NCBI GenBank assembly: GCA_947643665.1
Contig: CANRWW010000016.1
Span: 1-59,687, forward strand
DNA length: 59,687 bases
Source of the DNA: an uncultured Porphyromonadaceae bacterium
Lineage (GTDB): Bacteria > Bacteroidota > Bacteroidia > Bacteroidales > Muribaculaceae
Direction: 5' to 3'
The stretch's first letter is position 1; every line of letters begins with the position of its first letter. Both the position numbers and the translations under genes were made by a program. The notes under the pieces are model-generated. The model was not told the DNA's origin, searched no databases, and worked only from the letters and a program-made list of their open reading frames with translations. Shown here piece by piece: positions 20,222-51,676 of the stretch.

Positions 20222-23200
20222 ATGAAACATTCTATTACAAAGTTTCTGATGTTTCTGGCGATGGGTGGAGCTTCCGTCATGGCATATGCGGTTCCGGGGC
20301 TTACAATCACTGAGGCATCTTATTCCGCTCCAGGCGATATATATGCCAATGCTGAAAACCGTATTACGGGCCATACGCTCACGGTAGCTTTGGAGAATAC
20401 CGGTGATGCCGACCTCGTTCCCGGCGATGAGGGCTACAGCCTTACACTCTACCAGACTTCAGGGTCGGTAGAGCTGCAGGTCTTTCAACTGGATACTGCT
20501 ATTCCGGTGGGGGAGACCGTGCGGCTGGAACTGCCGTGCGACTACTCTGTGGATCCCCTGTTGGAGGCAAATCCCGGAAGTGTGAAATTCTGGTCTAAAC
20601 TGAGCGTGAGGGAAAATGTCACCTCCACCTCAAAAGACATCATGCCATGGCGTGATATTTATGCCCATTCCATCGGTTACCATCTCTGTGGTATGAATAG
20701 TGGGGTTGAATATAAGGATCCAATAAGTTTCGGTTTTGTCAAAGAGCCGAAAACGCTTACATATAGGCTGCGTGCTACCGGCACTGCAGATGTGGTTGTG
20801 AATTCGGTGGAATTGCCAGAGGGCTTTGCTCTCACCAATATAGATGTTCCTTTTACAGTAAAGGGTCTCGCTAATGTGGCAGGTAGCGGTGACGCGTATC
20901 AGGCATTGGACATTACATTTACTCCTACGGTGCCGGGTGTCAAGGCCGGTGTAATTAAATTCAATGTGGATGGTGCTGAGTCAAAGGAATATACGATCTC
21001 TGCTTCTTATGTGGGGCCGGACAGCTTCTTTGAAGGATTCGACACTGAAATGGGTTATGATTATGTGCCCAAAGGATGGGTGCTTAGTGATAACTGGGGC
21101 ATAGGCTACAATAGCGTGGCCGATGATGACAAATATAATCTGGCACACGGATCTTCGGAGGATAAGAATTTCAATTTTGCAATCACTCCAAAATTACGTT
21201 TTTCAGAAGAGGATGCCATGACGTTCCAGGCTGCGCGCCGAAGCTATGCATCGCGGATGGAGGTATATTATTCATCGGACAGAAGCAACTGGCAACTTCT
21301 CAAGACAATCAACGCTTATGGGGAAGGTGGAACAGACAGGTTCCCTGCAAATGACCGGACATATGCCGATTATGTTATTGACAATATGCCTGCAGGCGAA
21401 TGGTATATCGGCTTCAAAGGCTTGTATGTGATGCTCAATAATGTGTTCGGCGGCTGTGTGGTGCCGGTGGAGCATGACGCAATGATCTTGCATTCGGACA
21501 TGCCCGCCAAAGTCACTGCCAATAACCCCTGGCAAGCTAAGGTCATGGCGAAGAATCTTGCCGATAACGATGAAACCGCCGGAAATTATACTGTAGAACT
21601 GTTTGTGGATGGAAAGAAGGTGTGCGGTGTGGAGGATACTCCGGCATGGGCATCTTTGGCAGAACAGGAATTTGTAATGTCCCATACGTTCAACGATGCC
21701 GGCGAATATGAAGTTTTCGTCCGTCTGACAGTGGGTGATGTTGTTGTTGAGACAGCTAAGGCCACAGTGGCGGTAAAAGAGGAAAGCGCGGATGAAACAG
21801 TGGAGGTCGGCAGTTGGGACGGATCACGCAAAAGTCCGTGGATACCTTTGAGGACAAACTGGTACAACTCGGAATCGCAGGTAGTGTTCACCCAGGAGTA
21901 TCTTGCCAAATATGGCATTACTCCCGGTAAGCAGCTGATGGGCCTCGCCTTTGATGCGGCGGCCTCATCAAACAAGAAAATAAACACGACTCTTACCGTA
22001 TGGCTTGATCAGGTGGAGAATGGATTTGTTGAGGCTTCCGCTCCGTATGATCTGGCAGATGTCACACCGGTGTTCAGCGGCGCTTATGTTATAGATGTGA
22101 AAAATGAGAGTGTGCCGTATGAGATTATCAACGTAAGTTTCGACGCACCGTATGTTTATGAAGGTGGCAACCTGCTTATGTCGGTGAGAAGCACTAATGC
22201 GGATGTGTACACTGCGTTGGATTTTCCTTATGATGCGGAACTTAACAACAATTCCATCTCCAGATACAATGATAAATACGAGATATTCATAACCAATCCA
22301 TGGAATGGAGCCTCCGGTACGCCCATCACAAAATTCCTTGTCTATTCCCAGCCGGCCTTGATGGCGGGGAAGGTGACCGATGCCGATGGTGCGGCAATCG
22401 CAGGCACGGAAATCCGGCTTGTGTCAGGAGATGTGGTTTACACTGGAATGACAGATGAAGCCGGTGGGTACTCCATAAACGTTTTCCAGCCGGCACTTGA
22501 TTATGTAGTTACCGTAGATCATCCGGACCATCCGGTTTATCAGGCTCCGGTATCATTTGCCGGTGGAGAACCTTCGGGCGATATTGTCTTAAAGGATTTT
22601 TCAAACGAACGCGAATTTACGCTTACCGTGAATGTAGGCAATGATGCTGGTATTTCCCTTGCGGGCACAGTGTTCACTCTTGTTTCAGAACGTTTTTCTG
22701 TAAATTATCCATCCTCGGAGACGGTTCTTGACGAAAACGGAAGCGCGGTAATTGATGTATATGGCGGCAGCCATACTCTCACAATCGCTGTGCCCGGTAT
22801 GAAGCCCTGTGCCATGCAGTTTAATGTCAACAAGCACACTGCCGTGCAGGCGGTTCTTGCAGAGGACGTGCGTCAGCCTTATGGCACTTCGTATGATCTG
22901 GATCATAACATTTTTACAGGTGAAAACACTGTGACATTGAGCTGGAATGGCGATGAAGCTGTATTTGAGGACGATTTTGAGGGTTACGACGCATTTGCCA
23001 TAAATTTCGCTCCTTGGACAGGTATTGATGTTGACAATGTTCCTGCCGCAGGAATGTCTGGCATATATCCCAACAGGGGCGTGGTGAATTATGGCCAGAT
23101 AATCAATCCAATGAAAGTGGAACCTATATGGGATCCCGCCATGTATCCTACGCTGATGGGACGTAGCGGCATGCAGTATGTAGGTTTCGTGCAGACTGCA

Positions 23201-25069
23201 AACGGCATGCCGAACAACGACTGGCTGATTACACCCGCCATGGAGATTGGGGAAGATAACATGCTCCGTTTCAGTATCAAGTCGGCCGACACTGGAAAGG
23301 CTCGTTTTACAGTGGGTGTTTCCATGGAAGAAAATCCTGGCCCCGAAGATTTCACAATGATCTCGGAGGGCAATTACATTGAGGCGGATTTCTCCGATTG
23401 GAAGACTGTGGAAATTTCGCTGGCGGAATATGCCGGCCAGACGGTGAAAATCGGATTCCATTGCATTTCACCCAGCGGTGCTTTTATTTCGCAACTTGAT
23501 GATGTTTTTGTCGGGCGTGTCGCTGCCAATAACGGCGCAAAGGCAAGAAGGGTCGCACAAAAGTCTCCGGCAAATCCGAATGAGAAATTCGTGATAATCC
23601 TTGACGGGGAGACTGTGGGTGAAACCGATGGATACGACTTCACTCTTTCCGATGTCAAACCGGGCAAACATATGGCTCAGATTGTTGCTACTTATCTTAA
23701 TGCGACCGCTGAACCGGTGGATATATCTTTTGAGATAAATGCCGATGATTATGTGAAGTCTGATTTTGTGGTCACAACCAACAACGATATAGTTCCTGAA
23801 GCGCTGAATGTACTTCTTACTTCTGCTGAAGAGAAGGTTTATGCAGTACCGGCGGCAGACGGGAAAGCCTCTGTGGCATCCCTCCCCAAGGGAGTATACA
23901 CCGTTGAAGTTGACCTGGAGTTCTTTAACCATTACAGTGCCGAGGTTCAGATTGATTCTGAGATGACGGTAGACATAGTTTTGGAGGAGGCTATTGTGGC
24001 TCCGTTCAATATATCCCACGAGGGTGTGGTGAATGGCGACAAGATGGATGTGACTGTAAGCTGGAACCGTAATTACGGTTTTGAAGACAGTTTCGAGGCA
24101 TATGATGATTTTGCTACAGGAACTTTCGGCGGCTGGAAGACGCTCAATAACAATTTGGATCCATCCTATCCTATCGGTCTTGGAAGCATGACAAATATTG
24201 TCAGCTTCCCTGGTTGCTCCACTACTGCGAATATGGCAAGTGTGCCTCCTATGGTGTTCAATCCCCATGCCACGGTTCCTGCCATGTCGGCTGACGTAGC
24301 TATTCTGGCTCCTGACGGCGACAAGAGCGTGATCTTCCAGGGTCCCCAGCAGGCAAAGGCAGACAAATGGCTTATCTCTCCGCAGTTGTCAATCTACGAT
24401 GGATATGAGATGAGTGTCTTGGCAAAGGCATATTCCATTTATCCGGAACGTCTGGAATTCATGATTTCTACAACCGGTGATTCGCCTGAGGATTTCAGCG
24501 TGCTTGATGTTGTGGAACCCTCTTATTCAGAATGGACCAAATATACGATATCACTTGACGGATATGCAGGTAATGAAGTGTATCTGGCTGTGCACTGTGT
24601 TTCAGTTGACGGCTTTATCGTGCAGGTTGATGATTTCCGTGTCGGACGTGAAGGTGGCGAGGAAGTTTCTGTTGCCGGCTTTGTCAAGTCATATGATGTG
24701 ACTCTCAACGGTGAAAGCAAAGGGTCTACAACTGATACCGAGATGGTGTTCCCGGCTCTTGGAAAGGGTGAATATAATGTAGGGGTACGCTCGGTATATG
24801 CATCCGGAGCATCGGAATACACAACATATGGATTTTCTGTTCCTGATATTTCAGGATTGGAAGATGTAAATATGCAGCAGGACGTAGTGGTTTCTGGCGG
24901 AGCCGGTGTTATTACAGTGATCGCCGGTGGTGTGGATGTTACGGTTTATACTCCGGCAGGTGTGTCTGTGGCATCGTTCACCGCTTCTGGTGAGACTTCT
25001 ATCTCTGTGGCTCCTGGTGTGTATGTGGTAAATGCCGGAGGTATGGTCAGGAAAGTTACTGTCAAATGA
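20222..25069 (+). CDS. Large modular adhesin-like protein with T9SS-type tail
   Basis: A 1615-residue secreted protein, the largest in the window. The signal peptide is MKHSITKFLMFLAMGGASVMAYA. The N-terminal part is CARDB-like beta structure (about 25-270), followed by an anchor-J-like domain starting FFEGFD (about 275-420). A carboxypeptidase-regulatory-like domain (KVTDADGAAIAGTEIRLV) lies near 715-790. Two clear cleaved-adhesin/choice-of-anchor J domains follow: FEDDFEGYDAF to LDDVFVGR (about 915-1100) and FEDSFEAYDDF to VDDFRVGR (about 1285-1480). Both contain the WLI(T/S)P and WK/WTKY strands. The C-terminal 70 residues (VDVTVYTPAGVSV ... RKVTVK) fit a sorting tail. It has no own consensus promoter after the terminator at 20131-20175. 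Function is inferred as surface binding; no enzyme motif is seen. Confidence 0.85.
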   Translation: MKHSITKFLMFLAMGGASVMAYAVPGLTITEASYSAPGDIYANAENRITGHTLTVALENTGDADLVPGDEGYSLTLYQTSGSVELQVFQLDTAIPVGETVRLELPCDYSVDPLLEANPGSVKFWSKLSVRENVTSTSKDIMPWRDIYAHSIGYHLCGMNSGVEYKDPISFGFVKEPKTLTYRLRATGTADVVVNSVELPEGFALTNIDVPFTVKGLANVAGSGDAYQALDITFTPTVPGVKAGVIKFNVDGAESKEYTISASYVGPDSFFEGFDTEMGYDYVPKGWVLSDNWGIGYNSVADDDKYNLAHGSSEDKNFNFAITPKLRFSEEDAMTFQAARRSYASRMEVYYSSDRSNWQLLKTINAYGEGGTDRFPANDRTYADYVIDNMPAGEWYIGFKGLYVMLNNVFGGCVVPVEHDAMILHSDMPAKVTANNPWQAKVMAKNLADNDETAGNYTVELFVDGKKVCGVEDTPAWASLAEQEFVMSHTFNDAGEYEVFVRLTVGDVVVETAKATVAVKEESADETVEVGSWDGSRKSPWIPLRTNWYNSESQVVFTQEYLAKYGITPGKQLMGLAFDAAASSNKKINTTLTVWLDQVENGFVEASAPYDLADVTPVFSGAYVIDVKNESVPYEIINVSFDAPYVYEGGNLLMSVRSTNADVYTALDFPYDAELNNNSISRYNDKYEIFITNPWNGASGTPITKFLVYSQPALMAGKVTDADGAAIAGTEIRLVSGDVVYTGMTDEAGGYSINVFQPALDYVVTVDHPDHPVYQAPVSFAGGEPSGDIVLKDFSNEREFTLTVNVGNDAGISLAGTVFTLVSERFSVNYPSSETVLDENGSAVIDVYGGSHTLTIAVPGMKPCAMQFNVNKHTAVQAVLAEDVRQPYGTSYDLDHNIFTGENTVTLSWNGDEAVFEDDFEGYDAFAINFAPWTGIDVDNVPAAGMSGIYPNRGVVNYGQIINPMKVEPIWDPAMYPTLMGRSGMQYVGFVQTANGMPNNDWLITPAMEIGEDNMLRFSIKSADTGKARFTVGVSMEENPGPEDFTMISEGNYIEADFSDWKTVEISLAEYAGQTVKIGFHCISPSGAFISQLDDVFVGRVAANNGAKARRVAQKSPANPNEKFVIILDGETVGETDGYDFTLSDVKPGKHMAQIVATYLNATAEPVDISFEINADDYVKSDFVVTTNNDIVPEALNVLLTSAEEKVYAVPAADGKASVASLPKGVYTVEVDLEFFNHYSAEVQIDSEMTVDIVLEEAIVAPFNISHEGVVNGDKMDVTVSWNRNYGFEDSFEAYDDFATGTFGGWKTLNNNLDPSYPIGLGSMTNIVSFPGCSTTANMASVPPMVFNPHATVPAMSADVAILAPDGDKSVIFQGPQQAKADKWLISPQLSIYDGYEMSVLAKAYSIYPERLEFMISTTGDSPEDFSVLDVVEPSYSEWTKYTISLDGYAGNEVYLAVHCVSVDGFIVQVDDFRVGREGGEEVSVAGFVKSYDVTLNGESKGSTTDTEMVFPALGKGEYNVGVRSVYASGASEYTTYGFSVPDISGLEDVNMQQDVVVSGGAGVITVIAGGVDVTVYTPAGVSVASFTASGETSISVAPGVYVVNAGGMVRKVTVK

Positions 25070-25102: not shown

Positions 25103-25146
25103 GACGGCGTGTCAAAATTTACGAATTTTGACACGCCGTCTTGTTT
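25103..25146. terminator. Long bidirectional hairpin after the 1615-residue gene
   Basis: A perfect 17-bp stem (25103-25119 with 25124-25140) closes on TACG, with T-rich sequence on the plus side and AAAAAT (T-rich on the minus strand) on the other. It can terminate both converging genes. It precedes the structured element at 25162-25319 by 21 bases. Confidence 0.85.
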
Positions 25147-25161
25147 CTGTGCGGATGCTAG

Positions 25162-25319
25162 GGTGCTGTCAGTCATCGACCTGTGGTCGCTTGGCTCAAC
25201 CAAGAATGGTTCCAGATGGTAGGAGCCTGAGGGTGACGGGAGTTGGCTTTGGTCAATGACCGAGCCCGAATCCCCTCAGGCGACGACCCAGATGGGCCAT
25301 TATGAACTGCACCTTTTTT
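25162..25319 (+). ncRNA. Candidate structured RNA element, copy A
   Basis: A non-coding stretch between convergent genes. On the plus strand it folds into consecutive perfect hairpins: CGACC-TGT-GGTCG (25177-25189), CTTGG-CTCAA-CCAAG (25190-25204) and GGTTCC/GGAGCC (25208-25227). A larger hairpin, CCTGAGG/CCTCAGG (25226-25280), encloses GGCT/AGCC and GGTC-AAT-GACC. GGTGC at the start can pair with GCACC at the end, which is followed by seven T's. A related element lies at 50298-50412. No known RNA family was recognised; it is not a tRNA, SRP RNA or tmRNA. Whether it is transcribed, and from what promoter, is unknown. Confidence 0.45.
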
Positions 25320-25330
25320 TATATTGCGGT

Positions 25331-28300
25331 TTATTGCCGCACGGTGAGCTTGCGTGTCAATGGCCCCGCTTTTACAATATAGATGCCGTCAGGCAGGGGG
25401 AGCGCGATATTTCCGGTCGAACTGTGGATTGTGCGGCCAAGGAGGTCTGTGACGATTACTTGGTTTCCGGCCTCGGTGTTTACAACAATCGTTCCTGCGA
25501 TGGATTCGATAGTGGATGAAAAATTGGTGCCTTCCTCTATTTCAGGCGAGCCTGCACCGGGATCGTTCGGGTCGGTAATTTCAAGATTGTCTATGAAGAT
25601 ATAGGCATATGTGTTTATTTTGCCTTCTAAGCACACTTGTATCCGTTTTCCGGCATATGCCGATAGGTCAAGGCTTGATTTTACCCATGTGTGCAGCTCT
25701 CCATTGCCCATTATGAACGGTTCGCCGGTGTTTGCCCATCCGGTGCCGTCGTTGACGGAAATCTGCACCGTATTGAGGTCTTGCGCTCCGAGTACGTAAT
25801 AATGGAATGTCAGTTCTGCCGCAGATGCCCCTGTAAGGTCAATGCGTCCGCTGAAAAGCCTTGCCGACGTAAGAAGGTCGTTTGATCCGAGGACGGCAAA
25901 TCCGTCATCGCCGTCTTGGGCAGGCACGTTGCCGTCCATATCTTTTTCTGTGCTCAGCCACCATTCGGCTCCGTCATACGACATACCGAATGCGTGCGAC
26001 ATGTATGCTCCCGGAAATGATTCCTTGAACGGGAGGGGATCCGGAGCACCGACAGGTACCATATCGGAAGCCATGCCAGCACCGTCCTCACCTTTGCGGT
26101 TTATGGGGAATACGGCAAACTGCATCAGTTCCTGTTCAGCGTCAGGAGCAACGGCCTGGTATTCAAGGTGGCAGTCGGTAAGGTGTTCGGCAATGACGAC
26201 CTGCTCGCGGTATTCGTATTTTACAACGGTATATGTTATGTCGCCGGTTCCGAAATGAAGCCCGTTTACGTCTGTTGTGACTGGCGACCATGACAGTGCA
26301 ACCTCACCGTCGTTTTTTCCGGCAGTTACTTTGAAAGCTGTTGGCATGGAGGGTTTGGAGAATCCTGCAAATACGGATATGAGCGCGCGTTCCCCATCGC
26401 CGTTTTCATTGAAAGGTATTATTTCGTAAGTGTTTTCACCCTCTGCAGCCTCATTGTCAGTGCAGCTCATATATGCTCCGGGGTTACCGGTAAGTTCTGC
26501 CACAAGACGGTTGCCGTTGCGCACTTCAACCTTGGTAAGGCTTTGGAGTTCGTTGCCCCCGAGGTCTGTTTCGGGTGCGGTGAAACTTATCGTGGCTTTC
26601 AGGGCGCCATTGATGTCTGGCTCGGCCTTGATGCCGGTAGCCATTGCCGGAGCGGCTGTTGACAATGGTAAAGAAAGTTCGATATTGTCTACATAGAGTG
26701 CAAACTGGTCTGGCGCCGAACATGCATGGATCGCAAAATGGAAAACACCGTCTTCCGGTGCCTTGAAGTTGGCAGTGATACGGCGGCGTTCGTCCTTTAC
26801 AATTTCAGTCGGCGGCACAAGGCAGGTGGTGAATGCTTCGGGCGCGCAGGAAGTGCCTGCATAGAGGGCTACGTGCTCGGTGTATTGTGATGTCTCGAAA
26901 CCATAGGCGTCAAAAGAGACAGTATATATTTTCCCGGCCTCCAATAAAGCTCCCGGCAGCACGAGGAAATCATTGGCGGAGGAGTGGCGGGTGTCGTAAT
27001 AGCATCCGAAAAATCCGCGCTTGTCCCATTCCCATGTGTTTTTATCATTGTTGAGGTTGAACACGGTGAATGGAGCAGCGCTCTCTTCGGTGGTAAGGGA
27101 ATTGATATATGGTGGCACCACATGCCCCAGCGTGATCCTGTTGGATGTGGTTGCCTGTGCGGTCTTGCCTGATGCATTTGCAGATACTGAGTAACTTACA
27201 ACCTCAAGCCCTTCCGCCGGTGCGCTATATTTCTCGGAAAACTCTGTGGATGTGGTTGAAACAGCTGTGACAGTGCCGTCGGAGCGTTCTACCGTGTATG
27301 TGGGATTTTCAAGGTAGCCGCCGTTTTCAGGCTGTGCCGGTGACCATGTGAGGGTGAATGTGCCTCCCTCATATCTGAGATGCACGTTTTCCACAGGACG
27401 TGGTGTGTCGGCGCCTATGAAGCATCGGTCTGTGGTGGCTGGACTGTCGCCTGCGTCATTGCTTACCGAAACATTGAACATGTGCATGCCGGGAGACTCC
27501 ACAGTGACCGGAACCGCCACCCGTTTGCCGTATGCTGCCGTGCCGGTGGCTACCTGACGGTTGTCAACAGACACTTTGTAGATGGCGTCGCCAGTGGCTT
27601 CTGAACCGTTTACAAGTGTGGAGGGCATTGTAAAACCCACCTCTCCTGAAAGCGATGCTCCTTCAAATGTGATTGTCACATTGCGTGGATAGTCCGGTGA
27701 CAGATCAGAGGTGTATGCCGGAAAGTGCATGCCGAGTATCTCTTCATTATGGACCAGGTCATATACTTTGGCGGCGGCTCCTGTAGCCGGGTCAATCTCA
27801 TATAAGGCGCTCCCTTGTTCGCATGACGTGGCGTAATAAAACTTCCCGTTTCGTGGGTTGACGGCTCCTGACGACTGGTATTTTGAGGCAATGCCTGTTG
27901 ATGCTATCAGCGACGCTTCTCCTGAATCCGCCTCTATGACATACAGGTCGCCGGAAAAAGTGATGCCGTATATGTCGCCCTCAGGGGTGGCTCCCAAGGC
28001 ATTGAAATGAAGCCCGTCGGGGTAGCTTTTTATGCGGGTGGTGCTGAAGTTGTTTTTGTTTATTTTCCCGAAATAATATGTTTCGGTTCTTACGTTGAGG
28101 AAACTTCCGTAACAGTTTCCGCTTGCAGGATCCTGAACCATTGAGAAGGCTTGGAAATTGGAGTCCAGTATCCCCATCCCCGTCATTTCATATGTTTCCG
28201 CATCAATGACATAATAGCTCACTGATCTTGAGCCGTATTCGGTGTCGGCATTGGCAGTCATTATGGAACCGTCAAATACGAGGGTGCCGGCATTGCATGC

Positions 28301-28624
28301 CGCATAATCTGATGTGGCCAGTAATGTAAAAGACGGGGTTGTGCCGGTGGTGGGAATCTCATAATATCCTACCGGGGAGTTTTGCCCGGTCCACGCATCT
28401 GAGAATACTATGGCGCCCCGGGCAGGGATGGATTCGAAAACGGAATTGCCGGTAGTGTAGGGGATTGCCGGTGCCGGAGGTGCAAGGCGCACGTTGCGCG
28501 GATGCTCAAGGGCAAATGGTGCCTGCGGGGCGGTGTGTGTGGAGGTGCGCAGTCCTTGTGCTTGGCCGTATAAGGCAAATAAGGCGAAAGTGGCAACAAA
28601 AACTGCTGTCTGTAATATCCTCAT
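25331..28624 (-). CDS. Secreted fibronectin-III/choice-of-anchor J protein with T9SS-type tail
   Basis: A 1097-residue exported protein. The signal peptide is MRILQTAVFVATFALFALYGQAQ. Residues 60-310 form repeated strands like a beta-propeller (SDAWTGQNSPVGYYEI, FNALGATPEGDIYGITF, PRNGKFYYATSCEQG). Three or so fibronectin type III-like domains follow (about 315-500, 660-860). Two choice-of-anchor J-like sandwiches, with WEWDKRGFFG near 530 and FKESFPGAYMSHAFG near 890, end in VDNIELS and IDNLEIT. The tail (QVIVTDLLGRTIHSSTG ... RKLTVRQ) fits a sorting domain. It converges on the 1615-residue gene across the structured element. A minus-strand TACTTTTG at 28722-28715 is a possible -7 box without a good -33. 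The function is unknown. Confidence 0.85.
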   Translation of the reverse strand: MRILQTAVFVATFALFALYGQAQGLRTSTHTAPQAPFALEHPRNVRLAPPAPAIPYTTGNSVFESIPARGAIVFSDAWTGQNSPVGYYEIPTTGTTPSFTLLATSDYAACNAGTLVFDGSIMTANADTEYGSRSVSYYVIDAETYEMTGMGILDSNFQAFSMVQDPASGNCYGSFLNVRTETYYFGKINKNNFSTTRIKSYPDGLHFNALGATPEGDIYGITFSGDLYVIEADSGEASLIASTGIASKYQSSGAVNPRNGKFYYATSCEQGSALYEIDPATGAAAKVYDLVHNEEILGMHFPAYTSDLSPDYPRNVTITFEGASLSGEVGFTMPSTLVNGSEATGDAIYKVSVDNRQVATGTAAYGKRVAVPVTVESPGMHMFNVSVSNDAGDSPATTDRCFIGADTPRPVENVHLRYEGGTFTLTWSPAQPENGGYLENPTYTVERSDGTVTAVSTTSTEFSEKYSAPAEGLEVVSYSVSANASGKTAQATTSNRITLGHVVPPYINSLTTEESAAPFTVFNLNNDKNTWEWDKRGFFGCYYDTRHSSANDFLVLPGALLEAGKIYTVSFDAYGFETSQYTEHVALYAGTSCAPEAFTTCLVPPTEIVKDERRRITANFKAPEDGVFHFAIHACSAPDQFALYVDNIELSLPLSTAAPAMATGIKAEPDINGALKATISFTAPETDLGGNELQSLTKVEVRNGNRLVAELTGNPGAYMSCTDNEAAEGENTYEIIPFNENGDGERALISVFAGFSKPSMPTAFKVTAGKNDGEVALSWSPVTTDVNGLHFGTGDITYTVVKYEYREQVVIAEHLTDCHLEYQAVAPDAEQELMQFAVFPINRKGEDGAGMASDMVPVGAPDPLPFKESFPGAYMSHAFGMSYDGAEWWLSTEKDMDGNVPAQDGDDGFAVLGSNDLLTSARLFSGRIDLTGASAAELTFHYYVLGAQDLNTVQISVNDGTGWANTGEPFIMGNGELHTWVKSSLDLSAYAGKRIQVCLEGKINTYAYIFIDNLEITDPNDPGAGSPEIEEGTNFSSTIESIAGTIVVNTEAGNQVIVTDLLGRTIHSSTGNIALPLPDGIYIVKAGPLTRKLTVRQ

Positions 28625-49007: not shown

Positions 49008-50210
49008 ATGAAACAGAACAATGTGATACTTTTTGATGTGCCTGCGGTGCGTGAGAATCTGCTCCCGATGAGCTATACGCGTCCGGTGGCAGACTTCCTT
49101 TTGGGCATCAATACGCTGCGTCAGAAGTGGGAATGTCTTATGCCGGGGAATTATTCCTATCTTACCGCCGACTATCTTGCCGAGAAATTTCCGGCGGTAG
49201 AGACGGATGACAACATCTACATAGCTTCCCATGTGGTGGCTACACCGGCTCTTGCCGAGGCAGTAGCCTCACTCGCGCACGGTGAGGCACTAACGGGCGA
49301 GACACGTAGCGGAGAGCATGTGCTCATAGCGATGCGTGGCACATCTGCCCATTTTGCGGAACTTTCAGCCGGAACCCCTGAGGGCATCGTGTTCCCGGAG
49401 AAGGTAGAGGCTGTTAACAGGCTTTATGATATTTTTCTGCTGAACGGCCGTCAGATAGAGGATGACTTCCAGATACTCACGCATCGCCGTGAGGGCCAGG
49501 TGATACCGCGCAGCAACACTGTCATTGGGGATCCGGAACAGATCTTCATCGAAAGCGGCGCTATAGTGGAAGGGGTTGTGCTCAATGCTTCGCATGGGCC
49601 TATCTATGTAGGGCGCCATGTGGAAATAATGGAGGGCAGCTGCCTGCGTGGACCTATCTCGTTGGGAGAGCATTCAACTGTCAATATGGGCACCCGCATC
49701 TACCCCGGCACTTCTCTCGGTCCCTGGTGCAAGGTAGGTGGCGAGTTGAACAATGTGGTGATGTTCGGTTTCTCCAACAAGGCGCACGACGGTTTCCTTG
49801 GCAATGCCGTAATAGGTGAGTGGTGTAATCTTGGAGCAGGTTGTGTGGCGTCAAACCTTAAGAACGATTATACGGAAATAAAACTGTGGAATTATCCTTC
49901 GCACCGCTTCCTCCGCACAGGGCTTCAGTTCTGCGGTCTAATAATGGGCGACCATTCAAAAGCTGGCATCAACACAATGTTCAACACTGCCACGGTGGTG
50001 GGTGTGGGTGTGAACATACATGGTTCCGGATTCCCGCGTAATTTTATCGCGTCCTTCAGCGAGGGTGGGGCTACCGGCTTCAACGATCTGCCGCTTGAGA
50101 AATTCTTTGATACGGCAACACGCATGATGTCGCGCAGAGGCCGCTGCCTGTCTGATGTTGACCATCGCATTTTCCTGGCGATCCGGAATATCGCAGACAA
50201 CTACAAATAA
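49008..50210 (+). CDS. Alternative GlmU-type UDP-GlcNAc synthesis protein
   Basis: A 400-residue protein of the Bacteroidetes alternative GlmU type, expected to make UDP-GlcNAc (acetyltransfer and uridyltransfer) for peptidoglycan and lipopolysaccharide. The N-terminal part (1-180) lacks the usual GxGTRM nucleotide signature; YTRPVADFLLGI near 24-35 appears in its place. The C-terminal part (about 185-385) is a clear hexapeptide left-handed helix (VYVGRHVEIMEGSCLRGPIS, GAGCVASNLKNDYTEIKLW) with the acetyltransferase GTRIYPGTSLG. It is divergent from the DUF4954-lpxB-mutS run, so a single region links UDP-GlcNAc and lipid A genes. It ends at the long hairpin at 50221-50291. Confidence 0.88.
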   Translation: MKQNNVILFDVPAVRENLLPMSYTRPVADFLLGINTLRQKWECLMPGNYSYLTADYLAEKFPAVETDDNIYIASHVVATPALAEAVASLAHGEALTGETRSGEHVLIAMRGTSAHFAELSAGTPEGIVFPEKVEAVNRLYDIFLLNGRQIEDDFQILTHRREGQVIPRSNTVIGDPEQIFIESGAIVEGVVLNASHGPIYVGRHVEIMEGSCLRGPISLGEHSTVNMGTRIYPGTSLGPWCKVGGELNNVVMFGFSNKAHDGFLGNAVIGEWCNLGAGCVASNLKNDYTEIKLWNYPSHRFLRTGLQFCGLIMGDHSKAGINTMFNTATVVGVGVNIHGSGFPRNFIASFSEGGATGFNDLPLEKFFDTATRMMSRRGRCLSDVDHRIFLAIRNIADNYK

Positions 50211-50220
50211 AACGGTTTTA

Positions 50221-50291
50221 ATCCTGGTGAAAAACAAAGCGATGTGCCTAAATTATCAATTTAGGCACATCGCTTTGTTTTTCACCAGGAT
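50221..50291. terminator. 34-bp perfect inverted repeat (long hairpin)
   Basis: A flawless 34-bp stem (50221-50254 with 50258-50291) closes on an ATC triloop. The core GCGATGTGCC/GGCACATCGC is shared with other hairpins in this window. T-runs on both strands let it terminate the converging glmU-like and hpf genes, but the stem is far longer than termination needs. It lies 6 bases before the element at 50298. Confidence 0.85.
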
Positions 50292-50297
50292 AGGGAA

Positions 50298-50412
50298 GGT
50301 GCTGTCAATCATTGGCTTTTGATCGCTTGACCCGGCCGGGAATGGCTCAGGTGGCAGGAGCCGGACACTGCAAGGAAAGACCTATATGAGCCATTATGTG
50401 CCCACTCGTTCT
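50298..50412 (+). ncRNA. Candidate structured RNA element, copy B
   Basis: A non-coding element clearly related to that at 25162-25319. It shares GGTGCTGTCA, TCGCTTG, AATGG, AGGAGCC and GCCATTATG in the same order. The stem GGCTC/GAGCC (50344-50362) replaces GGTTCC/GGAGCC of copy A, keeping the fold. Stem CTTG/CGGG uses G-U pairs on the plus strand. The long extra hairpin of copy A (25228-25280) is absent. It follows a 34-bp perfect hairpin and lies between convergent genes. The function, and whether it is transcribed, are unknown. Confidence 0.45.
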
Positions 50413-50445: not shown

Positions 50446-50730
50446 TCAGTCTTTCTTGCGCTCAAGCTGACGCTCCAGTGCTTCAAGGCATAGGTCAACA
50501 GCTTCTTCAAATGTATCGGCGACTTTGGTTGCCACATGTTCGTCCTGAGGGACTGTCACACGCACTACTGCTTCTTTGTTTCTTGCCGTTTCAGGCTTGA
50601 CAACTGTCAGTTTCACGTCAATGGTGTTTATAGTGGTGTTATGTCGTGCGAGGCGTTCTGATTTTTTGTTTACGAAGGCGACGAGCTTTTCTGTGGCATC
50701 GAAATTGATGGCTTGAATTCTTACATCCAT
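50446..50730 (-). CDS. hpf: Ribosome hibernation promoting factor, short form
   Basis: Binds the 30S decoding region and stabilises inactive ribosomes when growth slows. The 94-residue protein is the short HPF/YfiA type with the beta-alpha-beta-beta-beta-alpha fold (MDVRIQAINFDATEKL, then VKLTVVKPETARNKEAVVRV and DTFEEAVDLCLEALERQLER). The ATG at 50730 fits the family better than an in-frame upstream start at 50772, which would overlap the recombinase gene. It begins four bases after the recombinase stop. The order rpsU, xer, hpf is widely conserved in Bacteroidetes, usually followed by tRNAs and tuf; here it is followed by the structured element instead. Confidence 0.92.
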   Translation of the reverse strand: MDVRIQAINFDATEKLVAFVNKKSERLARHNTTINTIDVKLTVVKPETARNKEAVVRVTVPQDEHVATKVADTFEEAVDLCLEALERQLERKKD

Positions 50731-50734
50731 AGTT

Positions 50735-51676
50735 TTATCCTCCTTGATTTTTTTGTGCGCGTGGATGCGCAAGTTGATAATTCTGTTTCAGTTCGCGGTA
50801 GGTTATATGTGTGTAGACCTGTGTGGTCTCCAGTGACTTGTGGCCTAATAGCTGCTGTACTCCGGGGAGATCTGCACCGTTGTTGAGCATGTCTGTGGCA
50901 AAGGAGTGCCGCAATGTATGGGGGGAGAGGCGTGAGGCGAGTGTGTGGCCTGTGAGCGCATGTTTTACAACCCGCAATACCGTGTGTGGCTTGAGGGGTG
51001 AGCAATCCGTGTTCACAAACAGGTGCTCCGGTGTCCTTACGCCGGTTGCCGTTGTGCGGATTCGCCTGTATGTATCAATCGTCGTTGCCAATTCTTCGCC
51101 GAATGGTATAAGTCTTTCTTTATTACGCTTACCGAGCACCTTTAGTTCGCGTCGCTGTGTGTCCACGTTGCAGTCAAGCATTCCGATCAATTCCCCCCGG
51201 CGTATGCCGGTTGTATATAGCATAAGGACTATCAGATGATTGCGCAATGGGATGAATGCTTTCGGAAGCCTTTCCTCAGTATCTTTGGGTGGACCAAGTA
51301 TTTCTTCCATTTCCTGGGGCCGCACGAACACCGGGAGGTTTTTCGGCACTTTGGCCAGCGTTATTTCTGCGGCGGGATTGGATTGCATGCCGTGATGGCG
51401 CATCATATAATTGAAAAGCGAGCTAAGTGCGCTTACTTTACGGTGTATGGACCGGTGCGAAATTTTGGCATCTGCCAGTGAAAGTATCCAGCTGCGTATA
51501 TCAGCCGGGGTAATGCTTATGGGGTCGAATCTATCAGGCACCCCTCCGGTTATGAAAGCTGCAAACTGACGCAGGTCGGTGCCATAAGACAAGACGGTGT
51601 GGGCCGAATAACTCAGCTCACACCGCATATATGTCAGAAATGCATTTATCATTTGCCGATTTCGTGAGGTTTGCAT
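50735..51676 (-). CDS. Tyrosine recombinase XerC/XerD-like
   Basis: A 313-residue tyrosine recombinase of the Xer type, which resolves chromosome dimers at dif; XerC versus XerD cannot be settled from this sequence alone. The N-terminal SAM-like DNA-binding domain (about 1-90) is followed by the catalytic domain with TTGIRRGELIGM (Arg I), HTLRHSFATDM (His-x-x-Arg), LLGHKSLETTQVY (His/nucleophile region) and the tyrosine in VYTHI. It is not a mobile integrase: it has no excisionase or attachment sites beside it, and its place between rpsU and hpf is ancestral in the phylum. A glycosyltransferase gene intervenes between it and rpsU here. Confidence 0.9.
   Translation of the reverse strand: MQTSRNRQMINAFLTYMRCELSYSAHTVLSYGTDLRQFAAFITGGVPDRFDPISITPADIRSWILSLADAKISHRSIHRKVSALSSLFNYMMRHHGMQSNPAAEITLAKVPKNLPVFVRPQEMEEILGPPKDTEERLPKAFIPLRNHLIVLMLYTTGIRRGELIGMLDCNVDTQRRELKVLGKRNKERLIPFGEELATTIDTYRRIRTTATGVRTPEHLFVNTDCSPLKPHTVLRVVKHALTGHTLASRLSPHTLRHSFATDMLNNGADLPGVQQLLGHKSLETTQVYTHITYRELKQNYQLAHPRAQKNQGG

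Follow-up and report, generated by a model that had tools for sequence, protein, structure and literature searches.

A short intergenic element of Bacteroidales with a conserved plus-strand rod fold, probably a non-autonomous mobile element

The window, by which we mean the whole stretch of 59,687 nt analyzed here, contains two related intergenic elements, designated copies A and B, each of which lies between convergent ORFs. Copy A is flanked upstream by an ORF of 1615 amino acids (positions 20222–25069, plus strand) and downstream by one of 1097 amino acids (25331–28624, minus strand). The left end of copy A is a perfect, terminator-like palindrome with 17-bp arms and the loop TACG (25103–25140), followed by a T-rich spacer (25141–25161, plus strand, as are all further features of this copy). 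The core (25162–25313) consists of an outer stem, a 32-nt two-hairpin module (25173–25204) that is missing from some other copies, and a rod with an apical stem-loop. A long-range stem of the rod is formed by AATGGTTC on the 5′ side (25205–25212) and, as its partner in the consensus, GGGCCATT on the 3′ side (25294–25301). The apical motif GGGAG..TGACC with a GA facing a GA (25238–25261) is near-invariant in the 56 distinct sequences described below, and a T-run (25314–25320) follows 3′ of the core. The original prediction had placed the element at 25162–25319; the start agrees with that of the core, but the element also takes in the palindrome from position 25103 onward and ends near 25313.

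Copy B is situated between an ORF of 400 amino acids (49008–50210, plus strand) and one of 108 amino acids (50446–50772, minus strand). It begins with a left palindrome of 34-bp perfect arms and the loop ATC (50221–50291) and continues with a core remnant that resembles copy A and has lost the apical part (50298–50402, plus strand). Most of what had been predicted for the pair was borne out: a perfect palindrome precedes both copies, convergent ORFs flank both, all five strings said to be common to them are present in the same order, and the extra hairpin assigned to copy A is the apical one missing from copy B. When copy A was compared with dinucleotide-shuffled versions of copy B, none of 2000 shuffles scored as high as the real sequence (local score 51 versus a shuffled maximum of 29; global score 90 versus 57). 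R1, a covariance model built from 17 hand-picked diverse copies, matches copy A at 25157–25316 with 92 bits, whereas the core of copy B, at only 15.9 bits, is outscored by the perfect palindromes; the E-value of this core is 0.00022 when a stretch of 251 bases is searched and 0.052 for the window as a whole. Because this score is weak, copy B is tied to the element family by the resemblance of its sequence to copy A and to another copy, on contig C8 (E 1.2e-8), and it is a decayed member. In old copies (window positions 50221–50291; loci L049 and L051), the left palindrome now has long perfect arms, the outer arm being complementary to the spacer side. Such arms could arise by template-switch correction of a quasi-palindrome.

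Further copies are present both in the source genome of the window (G000, hereafter own genome) and in related genomes, as had been anticipated. The own genome holds 13 matches to copy A, itself included (E ≤ 0.001); in copy A numbering, five span 1 to 144 or beyond, four span 42–144, and four are partial. A pattern of just the palindrome core, tolerating 3 mismatches at most, is found at 23 places, and its reversed control at none. The complete element, about 160–215 bp long, thus runs from a perfect palindrome resembling a terminator through a spacer into a rod-shaped fold of ∼130 nt. Side-by-side comparison of own-genome copies shows that the core typically starts with GGTGCTGTCA and ends with CCATTATGACAC. 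The two-hairpin module is present in five and absent from four of the nine near-full own-genome copies, and some copies are devoid of the middle part, the junction in one of them (L022) being a CCAGATGG direct repeat.

Several loci depart from this arrangement. Copies in the genome G001 (L081, L217, and L218) carry a homologue of the two-hairpin module at a second spot within the core, with both stems altered yet paired, which looks as if the module had been inserted twice. Three loci of the own genome (L044, L046, and L055) carry terminator-like hairpins, which are long perfect palindromes centered on AATTCGCGAATT and lack a recognizable core. In other genera, cores stand directly after a 3′-half copy of the same core or in tandem (L272, L273, L274, L275, L281, L304, and L305; L332, L333, and L335), an arrangement that fits repeated insertion or slippage.

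RNAalifold folded 17 diverse cores into a single long rod. After manual addition of the outer stem, 16 of the 43 pairs are changed on both sides in these cores, and such double-sided changes fill 38 cells compared with 9.2 in shuffles (0 of 500 as high). The larger alignment comprises 57 R1 matches from 54 chosen loci, 56 of them distinct, with a median pairwise identity of 64%; like all larger alignments it was fitted to the R1 structure, and it includes some of the copies on which R1 was trained. Here, 42 of 43 pairs are changed on both sides, in 460 cells versus 122.7 in shuffles (0 of 500 as high), the shuffles ignoring the relatedness of the copies. Of all paired cells, 95.1% are complementary, a value that drops to 32–39% when the 3′ partners are slid by 1–3 columns. 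Covariation hence exceeds both the shuffled and the slid controls, as is expected of a structured RNA family. Besides the GA facing GA beneath the apical stem, near-invariant positions include the G-U pair that closes this stem and a few internal-loop bases.

The predicted preference for a plus-strand structure is supported not only by this covariation but also by the wobble pairs. G-U occurs in 197 cells of the 56-sequence set and A-C in 22; an overlapping set gives 192 versus 18. Since A-C cells correspond to wobble pairs of the minus strand, the excess of G-U indicates that the plus strand carries the constrained fold. The same copies score 59–158 bits under R1 on the plus strand versus 22–42 bits on the opposite strand. 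This constraint applies equally to RNA and to single-stranded DNA. The prediction of three conserved local hairpins is not supported for the third, and the fold is a long-range rod. The change from GGTTCC/GGAGCC to GGCTC/GAGCC that had been taken as compensatory is indeed present, but a conserved local helix at this position was rejected, as none of its pairs is changed on both sides across the 17 diverse copies. Instead, the 5′ strand of the local helix pairs over a long range with GGGCC/GAGCC near the 3′ end.

To follow the distribution of the element, R1 was run against genomes drawn evenly from larger groups. In the family of the window, 27 of 297 genomes and 8 of 30 genera gave matches. 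In the order, matches were found in 23 of 393 genomes, belonging to 18 of 206 genera and 17 families (the latter counted from the list), six of these genomes being weak with best E-values of only 9.9e-8 to 4.1e-7. Across the phylum (395 genomes), only the own genome matched. E-values refer to single genomes and derive from a short calibration, and copy counts are lower bounds, as they were taken from the best candidates per genome (up to 13 for G000 to G013, up to 11 for the family, and up to 8 for the order and phylum). A pattern match in Flavihumibacter is probably due to chance, because R1 detects nothing there even at an E threshold of 10. The element of G006, a genome of the same genus as the window, matched nothing in a phage collection or in a plasmid collection, and two exact element patterns matched nothing in viral contigs. 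Viral contigs did yield three matches to an apical-motif pattern (L370, L371, and L372). That in L372 is a strong full-length R1 match of 71 bits, near a gene that we take to encode a mobilization-type protein. The other two (L370:11941–12065 and L371:8588–8692) lie between genes in phage-like contigs and score weakly (19.4 bits, E 0.0035); the adjoining genes are presumably phage structural genes. Their apical motif may reflect a distant relative, convergence, or chance.

Among the genomes analyzed, G006 is the most active host. It contains at least 40 near-full copies by BLAST (the best 40 of 82 candidates were scored), and 12 copies in a sample of 396,291 bp extrapolate to about 100 per genome. 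For lengths and ends, one copy per locus was used, the second copies in L093 and L115 being counted only through other loci. At the resulting 38 distinct sites, all 38 copies are exactly 175 bp long, one sequence occurring 20 times and another 10 times without a single differing letter. Letter-identical copies with sharp ends at different sites indicate recent spread. Empty counterparts of four sites were sought in 14 genomes of the genus and none was found, the relatives being too diverged. By eye, most relatives have hairpins of their own at two gene ends, which differ from one another. At one gene, different subtypes of the element occupy the same 3′ end in two species (L249, G001:C257, and L118, G006:C5). 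At L198 (G011:C26:10900–12700), two identical copies point away from each other at a distance of ∼770 bp, and the ORFs that flank them are identical and mirrored; this is an inverted duplication of the locus, possibly an assembly effect.

The ends of the element differ between lineages. In G635, a one-contig genome from another family than that of the window, there are 18 distinct copies of 174–176 bp, all 18 with the apical motif, whose inverted-repeat ends GAGACTGTTGCA..TGCAACAGTCTC form a perfect 12-mer. They are flanked by exact direct duplications of 5 bp in 15 of 18 cases and of 4–6 bp in 17 of 18; one copy has none. The left 12-mer GAGACTGTTGCA of these copies is also that of ISPg4, a member of the IS5 family, and of MITEPgRS/MITE464 as given in Table 2 of PMC4596501.

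In G006, by eye, the two element ends are only imperfectly similar, and direct repeats are not enriched at any offset tested. The left and right flanks show mutual complementarity located precisely at the element ends, with runs of at least 6 bp at 7 of 38 sites compared with 0.28% of mispaired flanks, and 0 of 20,000 shuffles showed complementarity as high. This signal comes from a minority of sites and fades without the ten best (P 0.02 and 0.08). Perfect zero-loop palindromes with arms of at least 11 bp occur at 3 of 38 G006 element sites, and none was found in the 396-kb sample of this genome. Thirty further copies from the family of the window (those of 38 that fit the end patterns, the rest being left out) show no duplication of 3 bp or more. 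Here the inverted-flank signal is weak (P 0.02–0.05 for G234 and for a pool of three genomes, P 0.06–0.10 for G234 together with G206, and P 0.11–0.27 for the own genome). As direct duplications are absent from the family of the window, one mechanism does not fit all versions of the element.

The gene context was analyzed in G006 with ORFs called by a crude script. Of 32 copies, 15 are located between convergent ORFs, 15 between co-directional ORFs, and one between divergent ORFs, with one undetermined. Convergent gaps are thereby overrepresented (15 of 32 copies versus 30 of 188 background gaps, element-holding gaps included; Fisher P 0.0002), and a hand count places a gene 3′ end within 70 bp of 27 of the 32 copies. 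Among convergent gaps, another GC hairpin is found in 3 of the 16 that contain the element and in 15 of the 25 that do not (P 0.012), the two kinds of gap also differing in length (medians 70.5 versus 102 bp). A GC-rich hairpin followed by a T-run, the sequence hallmark sought for intrinsic termination, is present, and on this basis the element probably doubles as a terminator for neighboring genes. Where the flanking genes are co-directional (15 sites), element and genes share a strand in eight cases and are opposed in seven (hand count). The plus-strand constraint is therefore not explained by action on the neighboring mRNA, and we infer that the fold serves the spread or mobility of the element itself. 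Of the three possibilities raised originally, a noncoding RNA, a 3′-UTR element, or a non-autonomous mobile structure, it is thus the last that is favored, whereas a 3′-UTR role is not supported as the reason for the fold.

No gene that could mobilize the element was identified. No cluster of ORFs spans more than three of 55 loci within flanks of 1.5–4 kb, which often end at contig ends. The Y1 transposase PF01797, present in 186 of 297 genomes of the family of the window, has no match in the own genome or in G006, so that a resident Y1/RAYT transposase was dismissed as the mobilizer in these two. No intact partner transposase with matching ends was recognized in the G635 end list.

The element has fixed ends, occupies many sites, occurs in letter-identical recent copies, keeps a conserved rod on the plus strand, and is placed near gene 3′ ends in the genus of the window. 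We think it probable that it represents a Bacteroidales family of short non-autonomous mobile elements, the fold of which is recognized in trans and which acts as a terminator in a side role. An enzyme encoded elsewhere would move the element, recognizing its ends as well as the plus strand in folded form, be it RNA or single-stranded DNA. Recognition in trans would account for a fold that persists irrespective of its orientation to genes and of the type of ends. In the family of the window, insertion with A-rich sequence on one side and T-rich sequence on the other would allow the left palindrome and the outer stem to act as terminators, and this service to neighboring genes may let copies persist. 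Copies A and B would then be old, diverged residents. A more far-reaching version, to which we give only tentative credence, is a Bacteroidales-wide transposable element whose folded plus strand (RNA or single-stranded DNA) is recognized or acts in transposition, while ends and target chemistry have been swapped between lineages; it would be a bacterial analogue of SINEs that spreads as a ready-made terminator.

A multicopy noncoding or 3′-end regulatory RNA of the host, with a fold that acts in the cell and copies that are paralogous genes, would account for the plus-strand covariation, the G-U excess, and the near-invariant internal-loop bases, as well as for the placement near gene 3′ ends. 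It accords poorly with letter-identical, sharply ended copies at 20 sites, with the lack of an orientation preference, with the patchy occurrence (23 of 393 order genomes) without a common gene context, and with the target duplications in G635, and we regard it as unlikely. In another reading, only the DNA palindrome matters, be it as cruciform, in supercoiling, or as terminator, in a plain MITE or terminator palindrome whose rod is a by-product of inverted ends. The outer arms are indeed inverted, the rod is nearly palindromic, so that the opposite strand also scores 22–42 bits, and the own genome has coreless solo palindromes (L044, L046, and L055). Yet a constraint on a DNA palindrome would be blind to the strand, which is at odds with 197 G-U versus 22 A-C cells, and a plain palindrome has no need of the conserved internal-loop letters (GA facing GA). 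This makes the explanation improbable in our view.

A repeat that spreads among terminators through gene conversion or recombination, with no transposition involved, would be in line with the missing direct duplications in the family of the window, the inverted-complementary flanks at some sites, and the terminators that differ among species at the two sites checked by eye. We consider it very improbable, given the identical 175-bp boundaries at 38 of 38 sites and the clean 5-bp duplications in G635. A mobile element with a fold recognized in trans thus remains our preferred interpretation. Descriptions of small mobile elements in bacteria usually center on the ends, whereas here the interior is maintained order-wide, 42 of 43 pairs showing compensatory changes. 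As the fold is kept in elements with different ends and insertion marks, its purpose is directly testable, and it could point to a route of mobilization that depends on a folded intermediate. For the genus of the window, the element suggests a specific mechanism for the turnover of terminators between convergent genes. The R1 model can also be used to annotate unexplained intergenic sequence in Bacteroidales.

The original impression that the element belongs to no known family agrees with Rfam, which gave no match at gathering score within the element, either in the window or at eight own-genome loci. At a permissive threshold, the matches of the element are all weak and concern unrelated families, the best having an E of 0.01. 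Among nine loci of other genomes, the only strong match is to RF04319 and lies outside the element: at L321:3142–3212, some 65 bases past a G635 copy, this Bacteroidetes sRNA family (BTncRNA_FopS) scores 69 bits. In the literature matches listed, no description of the element was recognized from titles and abstract openings, a scope that an unnamed motif in the tables of PMC3733652, PMC8040213, or PMC2864571 would escape.

Like a MITE, the element is short, has many copies and fixed ends, and is devoid of a linked gene; terminal inverted repeats, with a perfect 12-mer, are found in G635. MITEPgRS/MITE464 and BrickBuilt of Porphyromonas gingivalis, as described in PMC4596501, are likewise non-coding Bacteroidales elements with inverted-repeat ends, and the left end GAGACTGTTGCA of MITEPgRS and ISPg4 recurs in the G635 version (PMC4596501). 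Compared by description, they differ from the element in their tandem repeats of 41 or 23 nt (PMC4596501), and we are aware of no rod fold described for them. REPs and REPINs with their RAYT transposases are also short, dispersed, palindromic, and intergenic, and are thought to be mobilized in trans. REPs measure 20–40 bp and carry GTAG or CGTC at one end according to PMC3733652. In contrast, the present element is 160–215 bp long, the letters at the place of GTAG/CGTC vary, and G006 is without PF01797. RUP and BOX of Streptococcus pneumoniae are small interspersed repeats of intergenic regions, a description that also fits the element. To our knowledge, they offer no counterpart to an order-wide compensated rod fold combined with two kinds of insertion marks. 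We do not claim membership in any of these named families; the element would behave as a MITE with an additional role as a terminator.
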